From: Coleofasciculus sp. FACHB-1120
GTDB taxonomy: Bacteria > Cyanobacteriota > Cyanobacteriia > Cyanobacteriales > FACHB-T130
Direction: 5' to 3'
DNA: 64,000 bases
Assembly: GCF_014698845.1 (NCBI RefSeq)
Contig: NZ_JACJTV010000006.1
Span: 62,001-126,000, forward strand
This document shows, in pieces, positions 51,187 to 59,334 of the stretch. The notes under the pieces are model-generated. The model saw only the letters and a program-made list of their open reading frames with translations. It had not been told where the DNA came from and made no database searches. Both the position numbers and the translations under genes were made by a program. The stretch's first letter is position 1. Each line of letters begins with the position of its first letter.

Positions 51187-51464
51187 TGAGTGAAGATGAG
51201 TGAATATTACCAGCGGTACTTCAATTCCAAATTTGAAACTTGTCATGATTGCCCTTTTGGCAAAAAACTGTTCGTGGAGAACAGTTTAGTGACTTTTTAA
51301 AGCTGGAAACTAGGGAATTGCTTAAAGTAGCAGCGGATTCAGTAAGGGCGAAGCCTTTATGGCAAAATTTCCTCTTAAAAGCAGCAGATGTTAAATTGCT
51401 TGCATCTTCGTCCCTATCCGCCATTCGACAGCTCACATCCTCTGAATCACCCGCAAAAGTAGCC

Positions 51465-54161
51465 ATGAGAATTTTAAAAATCCAGACATTACGGGGTCCC
51501 AACTACTGGAGTATTCGACGGCAAAAATTGGTCGTCATGCGCCTAGATTTAGAAGAACTTGCAGAAAAGCCATCTAATCAGATTCCTGGCTTCTACGAGG
51601 GATTAATCCAGGTGCTACCAAGTCTGGAAGAACACTTCTGTTCCCCTGGCTGTCGAGGTGGTTTCTTGAGCCGAGTCAAAGAAGGCACGATGATGGGACA
51701 TATCATCGAACACGTTGCCCTAGAACTCCAGGAACTCGCTGGGATGCCAGCTGGCTTTGGTCGCACCCGCGAAACAGCCACCCCAGGCATTTACCAGGTG
51801 GTCATTGAGTACCACGATGAACAAGCTGGTCGCTATGCCGCCAGAGCAGCCGTGCGCCTCTGTCAGAGCATTGTAGACACCGGCACCTACTCCGCTCAAG
51901 AGTTAGCACAGGATCTCAAAGACCTGAGAGATTTCGCACGGGATGCTGCCCTCGGCCCCAGCACCGAAACCATTGTCAAAGAAGCCGAAGCCAGGGGAAT
52001 TCCCTGGATGCCTTTAAGCGTTCGCGCCATGATTCAGATAGGGTATGGCGTCTATCAGAAGCGAATGCAGGCAACTTTGAGCAACCACTCCAGCATTTTG
52101 GGCGTCGAGCTTGCCTCAGACAAAGAAGGCACCAAAAAAATGTTGCGCGAAGCCGGGGTGCCGGTTCCACGCGGCACAGTGATTCACTACCTGGACGAAC
52201 TTGAAGACGCCATTGACGAGGTGGGTGGCTACCCAATCGTCCTCAAGCCCCTCGATGGCAACCACGGGCGGGGCATTACTATCAACATCACCGACTTCAA
52301 ACAAGCAGAAGAAGCCTATGATGCTGCCAGTACAGCTTCTAAAACTCGCTCGGTGATTATTGAACGCTACTATAGCGGACGCGACCACCGAGTATTAGTC
52401 GTCAACGGCAAATTGGTGGCAGTTGCGGAACGAGTCCCCGCCCATGTTGTGGGAGATGGCAGATCCACGATTGAGCAATTGATTGAGCTAACCAATAGCG
52501 ATCCCCATCGAGGTGAAGGGCACGATAACATCCTCACCAAAATTGAAGTAGACCGCACCACCTTCTCGCTGTTGCAACGGCAGGGGTATACCCTAGAAAC
52601 CGTGCTATCCGCTGGAGAGATTTTTTACCTGCGGGCAACAGCCAACCTCAGCACCGGCGGGATTGCAGTTGACCGGACTGACGAAATCCATCCCGAAAAT
52701 ATCTGGCTTTGCGAACGAGTCGCCAAGATTATCGGGTTGGATATTGCTGGAATTGATGTGGTGACATCTGATATCAGCAAACCCTTGCGAGAAGTGGATG
52801 GGGTGATTGTTGAGGTGAACGCCGCCCCCGGATTCCGGATGCACGTTTGTCCTAGCCAGGGTTTGCCGCGAAATGTGGCTGCCCCCGTGCTAGATATGCT
52901 CTTTCCGCCAGGAACCCCCACTCGCGTTCCGATCATTTCCATCACTGGCACCAACGGCAAAACGACAACAACTCGTCTGATTGCTCACATTTTCAAGCAG
53001 ACGGGGAAAACAATTGGCTACACCACCACCGATGGCACCTACATTGGGGATTATATGGTGGAACCGGGGGATAACACCGGCCCTCAAAGTGCCCAGCTGA
53101 TTCTTTCAGATCCCACAGTAGAAGTGGCGGTGCTAGAAACGGCGCGGGGGGGGATTCTCCGCTCTGGTTTAGCCTTCAGCGCCTCTGATGTGGGCGTGGT
53201 CTTAAATGTGGCTGCCGACCACCTGGGAATTGGCGATATTGAAACGATCGAAGATATGGCTCATCTCAAGAGCGTAGTCGTGGAATCAGTGATGCCAGAA
53301 GGCTATGCCGTCCTGAACGCCGACGATCCCCTCGTGGCAGCGATGGCGCGGCGGGTGCAAGGACAAGTCGCTTATTTCACCATGAATCCAGAAAATGAGC
53401 TGGTGCGAGAACATACCCGCCGGGGCGGTTTGGCAGCAGCTTATGAAAATGGCTATCTGTCGATTTTGAAGGGAGATTGGGTACTACGGATTGAACAAGC
53501 GGTGAATGTGCCACTGACGATGGAGGCACGGGCACCTTTTCAAATTGCCAATGCGCTAGCAGCGAGTTTGGCGGCTTTTGCGGAAGGGGTGAAGATTGAG
53601 GAAATTCGTCAGGGCTTAAATACATTCCGCGCCTCGGCTTCTCAGACACCAGGACGAATGAATATGTTCGAGATGGGCAACTATAATGCTCTGATCGATT
53701 ATGCTCACAATGCAGCCAGCTATGAGGCGTTGGGTGGTTTTGTCCGCAACTGGCCTGGTGAGAGAATTGGTGTGGTAGGTGGTCCTGGCGATCGCCGCGA
53801 TGAAGATTTCGTGACTCTGGGCACACTCTCGGCAAATATGTTTGACCGCATCATTATCAAGGAAGATGATGATACGCGCGGGCGTCCTCGCGGCGAGGCA
53901 GCTGCCTTAATCTCTCAGGGAATTCAGCAAGAAAAGCCAGATTCCCGCTATGAAACCATTCTGGATGAGACGACCGCTATAAATACGGCGCTGGGGCAAG
54001 CACCAGAAGGCAGTTTAGTGGTCATTTTGCCAGAAAGCGTCACTCGTGCGATTAGCTTAATTGAGGCGCGTCGCCCTCAAACGGAGAACGGACATCAGCC
54101 GATTGCGCCGTCGGTGGAAAATCAAAATAGCTTGAAGGCGTCTGTAGCACAGACCCTTTAA
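51465..54161 (+). CDS. cphA: Cyanophycin synthetase
   Basis: CphA polymerises aspartate and arginine into cyanophycin, the cyanobacterial nitrogen store. 898 residues in three parts: an N-terminal domain (about 1-160), an ATP-grasp domain (about 190-480; EAGVPVPRGTVIHYLDELED, GYPIVLKPLDGNHGRGITIN, VVEVNAAPGFRMH) and a Mur-ligase-like domain (about 490-890) with the P-loop ITGTNGKTTTTRLI and later NYNALIDYAHNAASYEALG. Though the frame is open from 51249, the conserved protein starts MRILKIQTLRGPNYWSIRR at 51465, so that start is used. cphB lies 278 bases upstream. Confidence 0.96.
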   Translation: MRILKIQTLRGPNYWSIRRQKLVVMRLDLEELAEKPSNQIPGFYEGLIQVLPSLEEHFCSPGCRGGFLSRVKEGTMMGHIIEHVALELQELAGMPAGFGRTRETATPGIYQVVIEYHDEQAGRYAARAAVRLCQSIVDTGTYSAQELAQDLKDLRDFARDAALGPSTETIVKEAEARGIPWMPLSVRAMIQIGYGVYQKRMQATLSNHSSILGVELASDKEGTKKMLREAGVPVPRGTVIHYLDELEDAIDEVGGYPIVLKPLDGNHGRGITINITDFKQAEEAYDAASTASKTRSVIIERYYSGRDHRVLVVNGKLVAVAERVPAHVVGDGRSTIEQLIELTNSDPHRGEGHDNILTKIEVDRTTFSLLQRQGYTLETVLSAGEIFYLRATANLSTGGIAVDRTDEIHPENIWLCERVAKIIGLDIAGIDVVTSDISKPLREVDGVIVEVNAAPGFRMHVCPSQGLPRNVAAPVLDMLFPPGTPTRVPIISITGTNGKTTTTRLIAHIFKQTGKTIGYTTTDGTYIGDYMVEPGDNTGPQSAQLILSDPTVEVAVLETARGGILRSGLAFSASDVGVVLNVAADHLGIGDIETIEDMAHLKSVVVESVMPEGYAVLNADDPLVAAMARRVQGQVAYFTMNPENELVREHTRRGGLAAAYENGYLSILKGDWVLRIEQAVNVPLTMEARAPFQIANALAASLAAFAEGVKIEEIRQGLNTFRASASQTPGRMNMFEMGNYNALIDYAHNAASYEALGGFVRNWPGERIGVVGGPGDRRDEDFVTLGTLSANMFDRIIIKEDDDTRGRPRGEAAALISQGIQQEKPDSRYETILDETTAINTALGQAPEGSLVVILPESVTRAISLIEARRPQTENGHQPIAPSVENQNSLKASVAQTL

Positions 54162-54214: not shown

Positions 54215-54391
54215 TTATTTGAGGTCTTGATCTTCATCTGCTGGTTCATCGTCCACGCCCCTTACTCCGTCCTTGAACCCGCGTAAAGTCTTACCCAGCG
54301 AGCTTCCCAGTTCGGGAATCTTCTTGGGGCCGAAAATTAAAATCGCTGCGATCGCGATTACTCCCACTTCAGGCCATCCTAAACCAAACAT
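54215..54391 (-). CDS. tatA: Sec-independent protein translocase TatA/E
   Basis: A 58-residue TatA-family pore protein of the twin-arginine export system. One N-terminal transmembrane helix (FGLGWPEVGVIAIAAILIF) is followed by the FGPKKIPELG hinge and an amphipathic helix (SSLGKTLRGFKDGVRG) with an acidic tail. ATG at 54391 has AGGAG upstream; a GTG eight codons further up is also open but less likely. A truncated copy of its 5' end lies at 55957-56000. Confidence 0.92.
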   Translation of the reverse strand: MFGLGWPEVGVIAIAAILIFGPKKIPELGSSLGKTLRGFKDGVRGVDDEPADEDQDLK

Positions 54392-54431
54392 ACCCGTCTC
54401 CTGCGAACTATCCACAATTAACTATAGGAGA

Positions 54432-55856
54432 CTATCTATCATTTGGAGGAAGCTGTTCAGTTGTTATCGGTCTTGTAATCGGCAATCTCAACCATTGGCT
54501 CAATTCATAAGCGATCCAATCGAGTTCCGGTTCAGTCACCAACTCACCAGATGCCAACTCATAGTTCTGCGTTCCCGCCCAAATAATAACGCGGGGTTTG
54601 ACCTCAACTTGCCTACCCCTTGCACCAGTGGTCAAGTATTTTCTGGTGTGTTCCAGCATACTGATGTCTTGTCTTTGTGCCAACCTAGAAAAATTGAATT
54701 TCAATCCCAATAGCTCATAGGCTAAGGAAATTTGCTGCCGGTCGATACGCAGGTAAACTCGTCCAAACAACGCAAAGAGAATCTGCCAGATCATACTCAC
54801 GCCAGCATACCAAAAGGGTAGTGAAAACAACACCATAAATAAGTTGAAGCCGGACGCTGCAAATAGGACAGAACTTGTCCACACAAAGATGAATGAATTC
54901 CAAGCGATCGCAAAAAAGCACAATTGTCTAATTTCCGAAGTAAATCCCTTGGGAGGAATCTGAATTCCAATAAAATCGGCATTATTGATAAGCAGAACTT
55001 TGCTACCCGTTGGTTTCCTAACAGCTACAGCGGCACTATCTACTGTTAAGTATTCTTCTTCCAAAGCTAGCAGTGCTTCTTGGGCTGAAGCCAAGCGTCG
55101 CTCTAAGCTGGGTTCTGTCATCCACCTTAACCAGCTACTCAATGTTGGGCTAAGATTAGCCGCTTGCTCAAATTGAATTCGTCCATCCTTATGCGGTAAA
55201 TCTGCTGGATGAGTGCCCGTTACCAAAGTAATCAACGTTGCGCCTAAGCTATACAAGTCGGATGATGGAACTGCGCGATCGCCAAATTGTTCCGGTGGCA
55301 TATAGCCATAAGTTCCCACTACAGTAATCGTCCCACCTTCTTTGGCAGCTAGCGTTTGCACCGAACCGAAATCTACCAGATAAACCTCTCCGATACTATT
55401 ACCAGTACGATTAGTTAATAAAATATTGCTCGGTTTGATATCGCGGTGGATGACAGCAGGTTGACGCCCATGTAGGTAAATTAGAATTTCTAAAATTGAT
55501 GTTGCCAGTTGTTTGATTTCGGCTTCGCTAAAACTACGTCCACCTTTAAGATGTTCTTCTAGAGATTTTGCTTCTATATAAGTTTGTACGAGAGCAAATC
55601 CTTTGCTGTTGGGTGAATTAACTTCAAAAAAGTCAAGGTAGCGCGGAATAGCCGGATGTGCTAAGGATTTTAAAGTTTCGGCTTCGCGTTCAAATAACTT
55701 AAGATGCTCCCACTCAAAATCACCGCCAAAAGTCAATACTTTGATTATTACTAATTGTTGCGTTTCTTCGTCACGCGCGAGTAGCGTCCGGCGTCCAGCG
55801 CGTTTCCCAAGCTGTTGTTCGATTTGGTAGCGATCGCCTAAGACTTCACCATTCAT
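54432..55856 (-). CDS. Serine/threonine protein kinase, copy 1
   Basis: A 474-residue kinase with an intact catalytic domain (about 8-270): glycine-rich loop QLGKRAGRRTLLARD, K39 in VIIKVL, catalytic VIHRDIKPSNILL, LVDFGSVQ and the VGTYGYMPPEQFGDRAVPSS activation region. The C-terminal part (about 330-420) carries hydrophobic segments (FFAIAWNSFIFVWTSSVLF; LFMVLFSLPFWYAGVSMIW) and a soluble tail of unknown role. The start is ATG at 55856. The neighbouring kinase at 56041-57489 is its paralogue. Confidence 0.92.
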   Translation of the reverse strand: MNGEVLGDRYQIEQQLGKRAGRRTLLARDEETQQLVIIKVLTFGGDFEWEHLKLFEREAETLKSLAHPAIPRYLDFFEVNSPNSKGFALVQTYIEAKSLEEHLKGGRSFSEAEIKQLATSILEILIYLHGRQPAVIHRDIKPSNILLTNRTGNSIGEVYLVDFGSVQTLAAKEGGTITVVGTYGYMPPEQFGDRAVPSSDLYSLGATLITLVTGTHPADLPHKDGRIQFEQAANLSPTLSSWLRWMTEPSLERRLASAQEALLALEEEYLTVDSAAVAVRKPTGSKVLLINNADFIGIQIPPKGFTSEIRQLCFFAIAWNSFIFVWTSSVLFAASGFNLFMVLFSLPFWYAGVSMIWQILFALFGRVYLRIDRQQISLAYELLGLKFNFSRLAQRQDISMLEHTRKYLTTGARGRQVEVKPRVIIWAGTQNYELASGELVTEPELDWIAYELSQWLRLPITRPITTEQLPPNDR

Positions 55857-55956
55857 ACTTGTCGGCTGTCCCTAGCTTATACAGGCGGTTATAGCTTCAG
55901 ATTACAGTTTTTGGCAAGCTGGCACATTAAGACACTAGGTGTGGAACATCAATAGT

Positions 55957-56000
55957 GCGATCGCGATTACTCCCACTTCAGGCCATCCTAAACTAAACAT
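55957..56000 (-). pseudogene. Truncated tatA 5' end
   Basis: Minus-strand MFSLGWPEVGVIAIA matches the first 15 residues of tatA (one change), with the same AGGAG leader beyond 56000, then loses similarity after about 45 bases. It is a remnant left when the kinase-plus-tatA-start segment was duplicated; it cannot make a translocase. Confidence 0.75.
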
Positions 56001-56040
56001 ACCCGTCTCCTGCGAACTATCCACAATCAACTATAGGAAA

Positions 56041-57489
56041 CTATTTATCAGATGGAGGAAGATAATCTCTTGTAATTGGTATTTCCAACCATTCGCTGAG
56101 TTCATGAGCTAACCAATCTAGTTCCAATTCGTGGATGCTGCCAATCTCACCGTTAAGTTCATACTGCCTTAATCCTGCCTTAATAATGATTTTGCCTGGA
56201 ACATCAACCCGGTCTCCGTCTATGTCTTTTTTATGGTGTTTTGGGATGTATACCAGCCTGTTAATATCCTGTCTCAATGCTGGACGAGGATGCTGGAATT
56301 TAAATCCAAATATTTCCCATGTCAGTGAAATTTGCTGTTGATTGCAATAAAGCTGCAATCGTCCAAATAATGTAACGAAAATATGCCATATCAGAGTCAC
56401 GCCCCCATACCAAAAAGGTAGCGCAAGCAACAACAGAAAGAAGCCAATAACGGAAGGGTGGAAGAGGATACCGTTTGTCCAAATTATCATGAATGAATTC
56501 CAAGCGATCGCCAAAAGAGACCACCCGATAAAGGTACAAGCAATAGTAGAAGCAGTAAATCCTTTCGGAGGGATACTAATTTTAATAAAATCTGCATTTT
56601 TAGTCAGTGAAATTTTGCTACCAGTTGGTTTTTTAACAATTGGAGTAAAGCTATCTGTTGTTGGATGTTCTTGTTTGAGTGCTTGTAGTGCTTCACTAGC
56701 AGAAGCCAAGCGTCGATTTAAGCTGGGATGTGTCATCCGCTTTAACCAATTGATAAAAGCAGGACTGAGATTGGCAGCTTTTTCAAATTCAATTTGCAGG
56801 TTATCTGTCTGGGGTAAATCAGCGGGATGTTGACCTGTTGCCAGATAAATTAAAGTTGCGCCTAAGCTATAAAGGTCGGATGCTGGAACAGCACGGCCGC
56901 CAAATTGTTCCGGCGGCATATAGCCATAAGTTCCCACAACGGTAATTGTCCCGCCTTCCTTGGCGGCGAGAGTCTGCACCGCTCCAAAATCAACTAAATA
57001 AACTTCACCTACAGTATTACCAGAACGGTTGGTTAATAAAATATTGCTGGGTTTAATATCGCGGTGGATAACTGGAGGTTGACGACTATGCAAATAATTG
57101 AGAATTTCTAAACTTGTAGTGGTAATTTGCTTGATATCTGCTTCGCTGAAAGTTCGTCCTCCTTTGAGATGTTCTTCTAAAGATTTCCCTTCCACGTAGG
57201 TTTGGACGAGGGCAAATCCTTTGTAGTTCGGTGAATTTAGCTCAAAATAATCTAGGTAGCGCGGAATAGCCGGATGTGTTAAAGATTTTAGAGTTTCGGC
57301 TTCGCGTTCAAATAACTTAAGGTCGTCCCACTCAAAGTCATTGCCAAAAGTCAATATCTTGACGACGACTAATTGTTGCGTTTTTTGGTCACGCACCAGG
57401 AGTGTGCGTCTTCCAGCGCGTTTTCCAAGCTCGCGTTTTCCAAGCTGTTGTTCGATTTGGTAGCGATCGCCTAAGACTTCACCCTTCAT
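56041..57489 (-). CDS. Serine/threonine protein kinase, copy 2
   Basis: A 482-residue paralogue of the kinase at 54432-55856 along its whole length. Key motifs are intact (VVVKIL with the ATP Lys; VIHRDIKPSNILL; LVDFGAVQ; VGTYGYMPPEQFGGRAVPAS). The glycine-rich loop reads LGKRELGKRAGRR: five residues (GKREL) are repeated in tandem, a change absent in copy 1, and this could alter ATP binding. C-terminal hydrophobic segments (GWSLLAIAWNSFMIIWTNGI; FFLLLLALPFWYGGVTLIW) repeat the pattern of copy 1. Confidence 0.92.
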   Translation of the reverse strand: MKGEVLGDRYQIEQQLGKRELGKRAGRRTLLVRDQKTQQLVVVKILTFGNDFEWDDLKLFEREAETLKSLTHPAIPRYLDYFELNSPNYKGFALVQTYVEGKSLEEHLKGGRTFSEADIKQITTTSLEILNYLHSRQPPVIHRDIKPSNILLTNRSGNTVGEVYLVDFGAVQTLAAKEGGTITVVGTYGYMPPEQFGGRAVPASDLYSLGATLIYLATGQHPADLPQTDNLQIEFEKAANLSPAFINWLKRMTHPSLNRRLASASEALQALKQEHPTTDSFTPIVKKPTGSKISLTKNADFIKISIPPKGFTASTIACTFIGWSLLAIAWNSFMIIWTNGILFHPSVIGFFLLLLALPFWYGGVTLIWHIFVTLFGRLQLYCNQQQISLTWEIFGFKFQHPRPALRQDINRLVYIPKHHKKDIDGDRVDVPGKIIIKAGLRQYELNGEIGSIHELELDWLAHELSEWLEIPITRDYLPPSDK

Positions 57490-57619
57490 ACTTATCGCCT
57501 GTCCCTAGCTATTAGCTGTTTTATAACTTTGACTCATTGCCGATGGCAAGCTGATATCCTTAACCTACCTGCCTTTATTACTAGATTCCTGTACGCTAAA
57601 GAAAACAAATTTTCAAAAA

Positions 57620-58357
57620 ATGCTCGAAACTTCCAAGCCTTCCCTACGCGAACAACAACACCCTCTGATTCGCAATTTAGCAGACACCATCGAAGCAGTT
57701 TGGCACCGCCATCTCGACCTTTCTCCCTACCACCTGCCAGAAGAGTTGGGGTATGTAGAAGGGCGATTAGAGGGCGAAAAGCTAACGATTGAAAATCGCT
57801 GCTACCAGTCGCCGCAGTTCCGGAAAATGCACTTGGAATTAGCAAAAGTCGGCACAATGCTGGATATTTTGCACTGCGTGATGTTTCCGCGTCCAGAATA
57901 CGCGCTACCCATGTTTGGCTGCGATTTAGTCGGGGGACGAGGGCAGATTAGTGCAGCGATCGCTGACCTTTCTCCCACCAGCAACCTCACCTTACCGGCA
58001 AACTATACTGCCGAACTTCAGGCGTTACCAGCCCTCGACTTCTCGCAACCGCGCGAACTACCCGACTGGGGGGATATTTTTTCTGAATTTTGCATCTTTA
58101 TTCGACCCAGTAATCCAGAGGAAGAAACCCAGTTTCTCTCTCGCGTCGAGGGATTTTTAGAAATTCATTGTGTCAACGCCAAAGCCGCCAAACCCGTTTC
58201 CGCCGAACAGCAAGCTGAAATTTTGCAGGGTCAACACTACTACTGCACCAAACAGCAGCAGAACGATAAAACCCGTCGGGTGCTAGAAAAAGCTTTTGGT
58301 ACGGAGTGGGCAGAAAATTATATGACGACCGTTCTGTTTGACTTACCGAGTGCTTAA
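57620..58357 (+). CDS. pcyA: Phycocyanobilin:ferredoxin oxidoreductase
   Basis: PcyA reduces biliverdin IXa by four electrons to phycocyanobilin, the chromophore of phycobilisomes and phytochromes. 245 residues, the usual size. E73 (HLELAKVG), H85 (DILHCVMFP) and D102 (FGCDLVGG) match the catalytic trio of the Synechocystis enzyme (E76, H88, D105). Start ATG at 57620 gives [19 protein letters not shown], the common N-terminus. Divergent from the kinase gene. Confidence 0.95.
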
Positions 58358-58434: not shown

Positions 58435-59334
58435 ATGGTGCAGGAATCAGGCTCCAAGAATCAACCATTGGTCAAGCCTGTAGGGCGGTGGGCGATCGCA
58501 GTTGTCGTAGCGGGTGCTTTAGCGACCAGCGGCGTTACCGTTGACAACCTCTATGCCCTGCGAGAGGCTGCTCAGCCGGTGCCAATAGCGGAGCCGAGTC
58601 CGCCTGCCATACTTGCAGTGACTGCCTTGGGGCGTCTGGAACCACAAGGCGAAGTGATCAAACTCTCTGCGCCCATGTCAATTCAGGGCGCTGCTCGCGT
58701 GGATCAACTTTTGGTCAGTGAGGGAGATAAGGTCATAAAAGGTCAAGTGGTGGCAATTCTCGACAATCGCAATCGCTTACAAGCAGCTTTGGACAAGGCA
58801 AAACAACAAGTCAAAGTCGCCCAAGCCAACCTCAATAAAGTGAAGGCTGGAGCGCAAGCGGGGGAAATTGGCGCTCAGAAAGCAGCGATCGCTCGCACCC
58901 AAGAAGAGTTACGCGGGAGAATTGCCACTCAACAGGCGACCATAGCCCGCTTAGAAGCCGAACTGCAAGGGGAAAACAATGCATCTGTTGCCAAGATTGC
59001 CCGTCTGACAATGCTGGAGGCGGTAGGTTTAGGCGATCGCGTAAATTACTACCCGGAGAATCTGTCTGGGGGACAAAAACAACGGGTAGCGATCGCGCGT
59101 GCCTTGGTAAGCCATCCTAAATTAGTATTAGCTGACGAACCCACGGCTGCTTTAGATAGTAAATCTGGACGCGATGTCGTCGAGCTGATGCAGCGATTGG
59201 CAAAGGAACAAGGGTGTACGATTTTGATGGTGACTCACGACAATCGAATTTTAGATGTTGCTGACCGAATTATTCACATGGAAGATGGGCGTCTAGTCCG
59301 CGATACAGTTATTTCTGAAAAAACACCTGCATAA
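58435..59334 (+). CDS. Chimaeric DevB-DevA-type ABC exporter fusion
   Basis: 299 residues in one frame. Residues 1 to about 175 are the front of a DevB-like membrane-fusion (HlyD) protein: a TM helix (WAIAVVVAGALATSGVTVDN), LGRLEPQGEVIKLSAP, GARVDQLLVSEGDKVIKGQV and coiled-coil AALDKAKQQVKVAQANLNKV. From about residue 190 it reads like the back of a DevA-like ATPase: MLEAVGLGDRVNYYPENLSG, GQKQRVAIARALVSHPKL, LVLADEPTAALDSKSG and MVTHDNRILDVADRIIHM. The Walker A, the DevB C-terminal half and all of DevC are absent. It cannot hydrolyse ATP alone; likely a deletion product. Confidence 0.85.
   Translation: MVQESGSKNQPLVKPVGRWAIAVVVAGALATSGVTVDNLYALREAAQPVPIAEPSPPAILAVTALGRLEPQGEVIKLSAPMSIQGAARVDQLLVSEGDKVIKGQVVAILDNRNRLQAALDKAKQQVKVAQANLNKVKAGAQAGEIGAQKAAIARTQEELRGRIATQQATIARLEAELQGENNASVAKIARLTMLEAVGLGDRVNYYPENLSGGQKQRVAIARALVSHPKLVLADEPTAALDSKSGRDVVELMQRLAKEQGCTILMVTHDNRILDVADRIIHMEDGRLVRDTVISEKTPA

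Follow-up and report, generated by a model that had tools for sequence, protein, structure and literature searches.

An old tatA junction between mosaic kinase genes in Coleofasciculus and a sister genus: a probable tandem arrangement whose scar looks young

How did the first codons of tatA come to lie between two neighbouring kinase genes, and does their near identity to the intact gene date the event that left them there? The window analysed, 64,000 nucleotides from Coleofasciculus sp. FACHB-1120 (genome G000), carries on its minus strand, in order, an upstream kinase gene (K2, 57489–56041), a tatA remnant, a downstream kinase gene (K1, 55856–54432) and the intact tatA (54391–54215). The block is flanked by two plus-strand genes, pcyA (57620–58357; NCBIfam NF002760, 376.7 bits), which fixes the synteny, and the cyanophycin synthetase gene cphA (51249–54161; NCBIfam TIGR02068, 1248 bits). 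The intact tatA encodes 58 amino acids (Pfam TatA_B_E, 1.3e-19; NCBIfam TIGR01411 above its cut-off). K2 (482 aa; Pfam Pkinase, 1.2e-37) adjoins pcyA and K1 (474 aa; Pkinase, 3.8e-37) adjoins tatA; both have the domain and the HRDxKPxN and DFG motifs of Hanks-type Ser/Thr kinases, from which their activity is predicted, as well as hydrophobic stretches C-terminal of the kinase domain. The dN/dS values of three between-species pairs of like position (0.17–0.38) suggest that both copies are under constraint. Numerous Nostocales, as well as other cyanobacteria, have a kinase of this family beside tatA and cphA (loci L033–L112), and the kinase–tatA–cphA neighbourhood is one long kept. A promoter and terminator scan gave counts approximately within one standard deviation of shuffled sequence, and among titles and abstract openings of the open papers searched we recognised no account of a kinase–tatA remnant locus.

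The remnant (55956–56000, minus strand) consists of an ATG and 14 further codons, reading MFSLGWPEVGVIAIA where the real gene has MFGLGWPEVGVIAIA, and is identical to it at 44 of 45 bases; its frame is open for 21 codons in total. With the leader included (56001–56040, from the K2 stop to the ATG, containing GGAGA), the best ungapped match pairs 54347–54429 with 55956–56038 on the minus strand and extends over 83 bp, all but 2 of them identical; it scores 77, and the same 83-bp query scores just 11–13 elsewhere in the window. The sequence-only reading had reported the tatA ribosome site and first 15 codons in this gap, with 55957 for the start at 55956, and had pointed to an alignment with the tatA end as the check; that alignment confirms similarity outside the kinases and places the breakpoint one base beyond the HIP1 palindrome GCGATCGC (55957–55964; 54348–54355 in the real copy), which falls in tatA codons 12–15. 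The 99 bp between the remnant and K1 (55857–55955, minus strand) are homologous by alignment to the pcyA–K2 intergenic region (57490–57619), and 0 of 500 shuffles reached the score for each of four reference regions, as expected for a head-to-tail tandem junction. The fragment between the kinases corresponds to tatA, which comes after the last copy, with order and strand preserved; the sequence 5' of the second copy (K1) matches that 5' of the first, and the join itself lies within ~20–25 bases following the remnant, inside the K1 upstream region. These comparisons support the view that a putative repeat, made up of a kinase upstream region, a kinase and the tatA start, was broken where the remnant now lies.

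Comparison of 120 genomes, five of which (G001–G005) belong to the same family as the window's genome, showed that this structure recurs. G002 and G005, both of one other genus, carry a kinase (Ku), tatA codons 1–15, a second kinase (Kd) and tatA, and their remnants end at the same HIP1. The remnant had been taken as a direct record of the break; it does mark the break, but it is not private to one duplication in the window's lineage. When 243 genomes were searched with the remnant, in a way that could miss more diverged remnants, two matches at this locus were listed only for G000, G002 and G005; additional matches of 22–37 bases each were a second one in G048, G102 and G161 and, in G005, a third. 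Between other tatA-linked tandem kinases (L138, L081 and L108) no remnant was found at E < 1. The 53 bp upstream of Kd in G002 resemble the pcyA–kinase regions weakly (score reached by 2 to 64 of 500 shuffles, depending on the reference), and 3 of 500 shuffles reached the score against the upstream region of Ku. A single kinase lies between pcyA and tatA in G001, which is of the window's genus, and also in G004, G030 and L093.

The single tatA-linked kinase of G004 (L135 8165–9565) is interrupted in frame by a stop at codon 123, which reflects either a decayed gene or a sequencing error, and G003 has ~300 bases and no kinase between pcyA and tatA (L139 8709–9011). In G002 and G005 the gap between Kd and tatA (L131 8313–8573 and L132 7467–7770) holds a run of C-rich and G-rich palindromic repeats, and their tatA leader is unlike the others, whereas their remnant has kept a leader more like the one in the window's genus. 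G001 has another tandem kinase pair at the end of a contig (C50; L134 4657–7557), with ~50% identity to K1. In the window, residues 1–192 and 193–299 of a 299-aa plus-strand frame (58435–59334) match G001 stretches ~2.4 kb apart (L133 7689–7111 and 4663–4343), with Pfam ABC_tran on residues 140–238. This frame looks like an in-frame deletion fusing a membrane-fusion protein to an ABC ATPase, which we take to be devB-like and devA-like, respectively, and an assembly error is possible.

The remnant might be retained because it encodes a membrane micropeptide of 21 codons or serves K1 as a leader; such a function would suit its intact ribosome site and start, its hydrophobic segment and the frame in G005, which by eye extends into the first part of Kd. 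However, the G002 frame closes early, again by eye, and between G002 and G005 the remnant varies at 3 of 45 bases and the tatA start at 0 of 45, small numbers from which the remnant seems free to drift. We find such a role scarcely credible.

The ages suggested by the different parts of the locus do not agree. K1 and K2 share 73% identity (27% of bases differ) with a dS of 0.79, whereas the real and remnant copies of the 83-bp repeat differ at 2 positions (2.4%), so the clocks disagree and the kinases appear, from these distances, to have parted far earlier than the remnant and tatA. For scale, K2 and the G001 kinase are 90% identical (dS 0.22), and the pcyA–kinase intergenic regions of G000 and G001 are 91% identical; the 2 differences in the repeat therefore imply that the remnant was last one with tatA at about the parting of G000 and G001 or later. 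Relatives with one kinase, to which the sequence-only reading had looked for a date, do exist, but the dS values stand against a nearly identical remnant. That reading placed a single duplication in the window's lineage, after which the kinases would have diverged independently from end to end. The single kinase of G001 and the fresh look of the remnant are what such an event would leave; the same remnant in a second genus, the clock mismatch, the mosaic make-up of the kinases described below and the greater closeness of K1 to G002 Ku (82–88% of bases in codon columns 384–480) than to K2 (48–67%) make it very improbable; divergence along the whole length is contradicted, and so is restriction to one lineage, unless the structure in G002 and G005 is unrelated. 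Exchange with the real tatA would be the simplest cause of the remnant's uniformity, given this mismatch.

Site patterns among the four kinases K1, K2, Ku and Kd bear on the age of the pair. In codon columns 72–144, 14 sites pair the copies by position, 4 by genome and 2 crosswise, and in columns 192–264 the corresponding counts are 25, 2 and 1; in both segments K1 groups with Kd (downstream) and K2 with Ku (upstream), and in a tree built on these columns support is 100 for the upstream clade and 85 for K1 plus Kd. This pairing implies that the pair is older than the split of the genera. Own-genome pairing leads in columns 0–24, 24–72, 144–192 and 264–312, and crosswise pairing, K1 with Ku, leads in the three parts of columns 312–493 (crosswise 9, 11 and 10; own-genome 2, 2 and 2; position 1, 3 and 2). 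Segment trees, in which many nodes are poorly supported, shift in the same way as the site counts. The whole-length tree, which took 32 of 33 kinases (that of G004 was omitted), places K1 with the upstream copies and not with Kd (support 90); we read it as an average over conflicting parts and rejected it as the true history, since the segments disagree.

The remnants themselves pattern differently. Over their 45 bases each one pairs with the tatA of its own genome (3, 0, 0 and 4, 0, 0), as expected from independent duplications, and this counts against a single old event. Two duplications, one in each genus and each broken at the tatA HIP1 as a hotspot, would also explain why the sequences after the break are mutually unlike by eye. 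Against this stand the position-wise orthology of columns 72–144 and 192–264, the K1 plus Kd clade and the lack of HIP1 on the partner side, in the pcyA–kinase regions read, and we regard two separate events as improbable.

The kinases are mosaics. The earlier claim of divergence over their full lengths does not hold, as the identity of K1 and K2 is uneven, at 96% across the initial 24 codon columns and ~50% in the tail. Where K1 and K2 have different bases, the kinase of G001 reads K2–K1–K2 along its length, agreeing with K1 and K2 at 9 and 140 sites in columns 72–312, 41 and 11 in columns 312–384, and 9 and 112 in columns 384–493, which suggests that the G001 lineage once encountered a copy resembling K1. 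Third positions in the same segments gave 3 and 81, 16 and 4, and 3 and 44. The Fisher p-values for the two switches were 8e-24 and 7e-21 over all sites and 1.5e-12 and 3.3e-9 at third positions; for G002 Ku, which agrees with K1 and K2 at 36 and 117 sites in columns 24–312 and at 128 and 35 in columns 312–493 (third positions, 19 and 62, then 46 and 18), they were 2e-23 and 6e-9. All of these values are uncorrected for multiple testing and optimistic, because the segment borders were chosen after inspecting identity along the kinases. A permutation test that seeks its own borders gave p = 0.0001 for G001 against K1 over all sites and 0.0019 or 0.020 at third positions, depending on the set, uncorrected for the 10 or 21 pairs. 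For a K1/K2 tract within the coding region the same approach gave, over all sites and at third positions respectively, p = 0.29 and 0.79 with the first set and 0.041 and 0.19 with the second, none of them clearly significant. Taken over triplet and quartet counts, third positions and permutations, the relationships along the kinase are discordant beyond rate variation. As K1 and K2 are just ~73% alike, an assembly artefact is an unlikely source of the G001 mosaic.

Within G002, Ku and Kd share identical runs of 38, 68 and 53 bases inside alignment bases 420–589, and at sites in columns 144–192 where K1 and Ku differ, Kd sides with Ku 22 times and with K1 0 times. These tracts fit exchange between neighbouring copies inside one genome, which we infer for the locus, with relatives as possible donors. 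No donor for the odd middle and tail of K2 was found among the G000 and G001 paralogues compared, where the tatA-linked kinases remained the best matches.

A second kinase could also have arrived already divergent, if the kinase and tatA start of a relative had been placed alongside the resident kinase, through recombination in pcyA at one end and an illegitimate join at HIP1 at the other. The exchange-poor segments fit this account, as they split the upstream copies (K2, the G001 kinase and Ku) and the downstream copies (K1 and Kd) into clades with kinases of other families between them, and the tree of segment D joins the upstream copies with G030 (support 99). However, a single clade of all copies survives the AU test (p = 0.199, neither favoured nor rejected), and the upstream regions of both K1 and K2 are of the local pcyA–kinase type. 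We consider an arrival of this kind unlikely, while allowing it a real share of the probability. The proposal that the duplicated unit was a kinase with the 5' end of tatA is upheld in its outline by the remnant and the upstream-region match, but the AU test does not decide whether K1 and K2 were identical at birth.

HIP1 occurs 103 times in the window, or about once per 620 bases, so by our own estimate a single break within ~1 base of one would be a roughly 1–2% event, noticed post hoc. Among 54 distinct tatA starts at the loci compared, just 7 have HIP1 at that position. On the partner side, the 200 bases that precede K2, the kinase of G001, Ku in two genomes and the G004 and L093 kinases hold none; HIP1 thus borders the junction on the tatA side only, not on both sides as HIP1-mediated rearrangement would have it, and its involvement is a mere lead, although an ancestral partner-side HIP1, since lost, is possible. 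According to Elhai 2015 (PMC4390886), evidence ties HIP1 to site-specific recombination and none ties it to homologous recombination. For HIP1 in smtB and a role suggested for it in rearrangements, PMC6331805 refers to Gupta 1993. The smtB locus of Synechococcus PCC 6301, as relayed there, is alike in having a rearrangement border at GCGATCGC and differs from the present junction, where the upstream regions read have no HIP1 on the partner side. A bolder and rather doubtful proposal is that HIP1 is a preferred end for illegitimate joins, the tatA palindrome serving as the break, perhaps repeatedly, and the resulting direct repeat fuelling recurrent exchange and loss of copies, from which chimeric kinases with swapped C-terminal tails arise. 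If HIP1 is indeed a preferred break point, this would bear on the role of a very common cyanobacterial palindrome.

We favour, at a probability of about 0.62, a tandem arrangement that is old and was broken at the HIP1 of tatA, followed by patchy exchange between the copies and the loss of one copy. An ancestor common to the window's genus and its sister genus would have had pcyA, a kinase, tatA and cphA in that order, and a second set of kinase upstream region, kinase and tatA codons 1–15 would have been set head to tail and joined just past the HIP1; the structure common to the two genera suggests kinase, tatA fragment, kinase and tatA as the outcome. Later ectopic recombination, probably within the same genome, would have swapped pieces between kinase copies in both genera. 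In the window's genus the leader and tatA fragment may have been homogenised with the real tatA, as the clock mismatch suggests, and would look young as a result, and in G001 the pair would have been cut to one kinase with a K1-like middle between K2-like ends. The copies would have stayed constrained Ser/Thr kinases with hydrophobic, probably membrane-bound middles while the remnant drifted. The locus is a small worked case of a misleading duplication scar, which looks young as it was seemingly rewritten, beside genes that are old and patchwork, and kinases with exchanged C-terminal tails offer natural chimeras for probing tail function.

Tandem duplications that arise in bacterial gene amplification can leave a truncated neighbour gene at the junction. 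The present locus resembles them in its head-to-tail unit and in the 5' fragment stranded between the copies, but here the fragment is old, common to two genera and seemingly homogenised with the real gene. Tandem paralogues are likewise known to undergo ectopic gene conversion, and the patchwork of high-identity tracts and the switches in site pattern are alike; here, by contrast, it is deduced from few genomes and the donor may be the own genome or a relative. The event is thus of an ordinary kind, unusually well documented by its relatives, and its twist is that the kinases are mosaics and the scar seems to have been rewritten.
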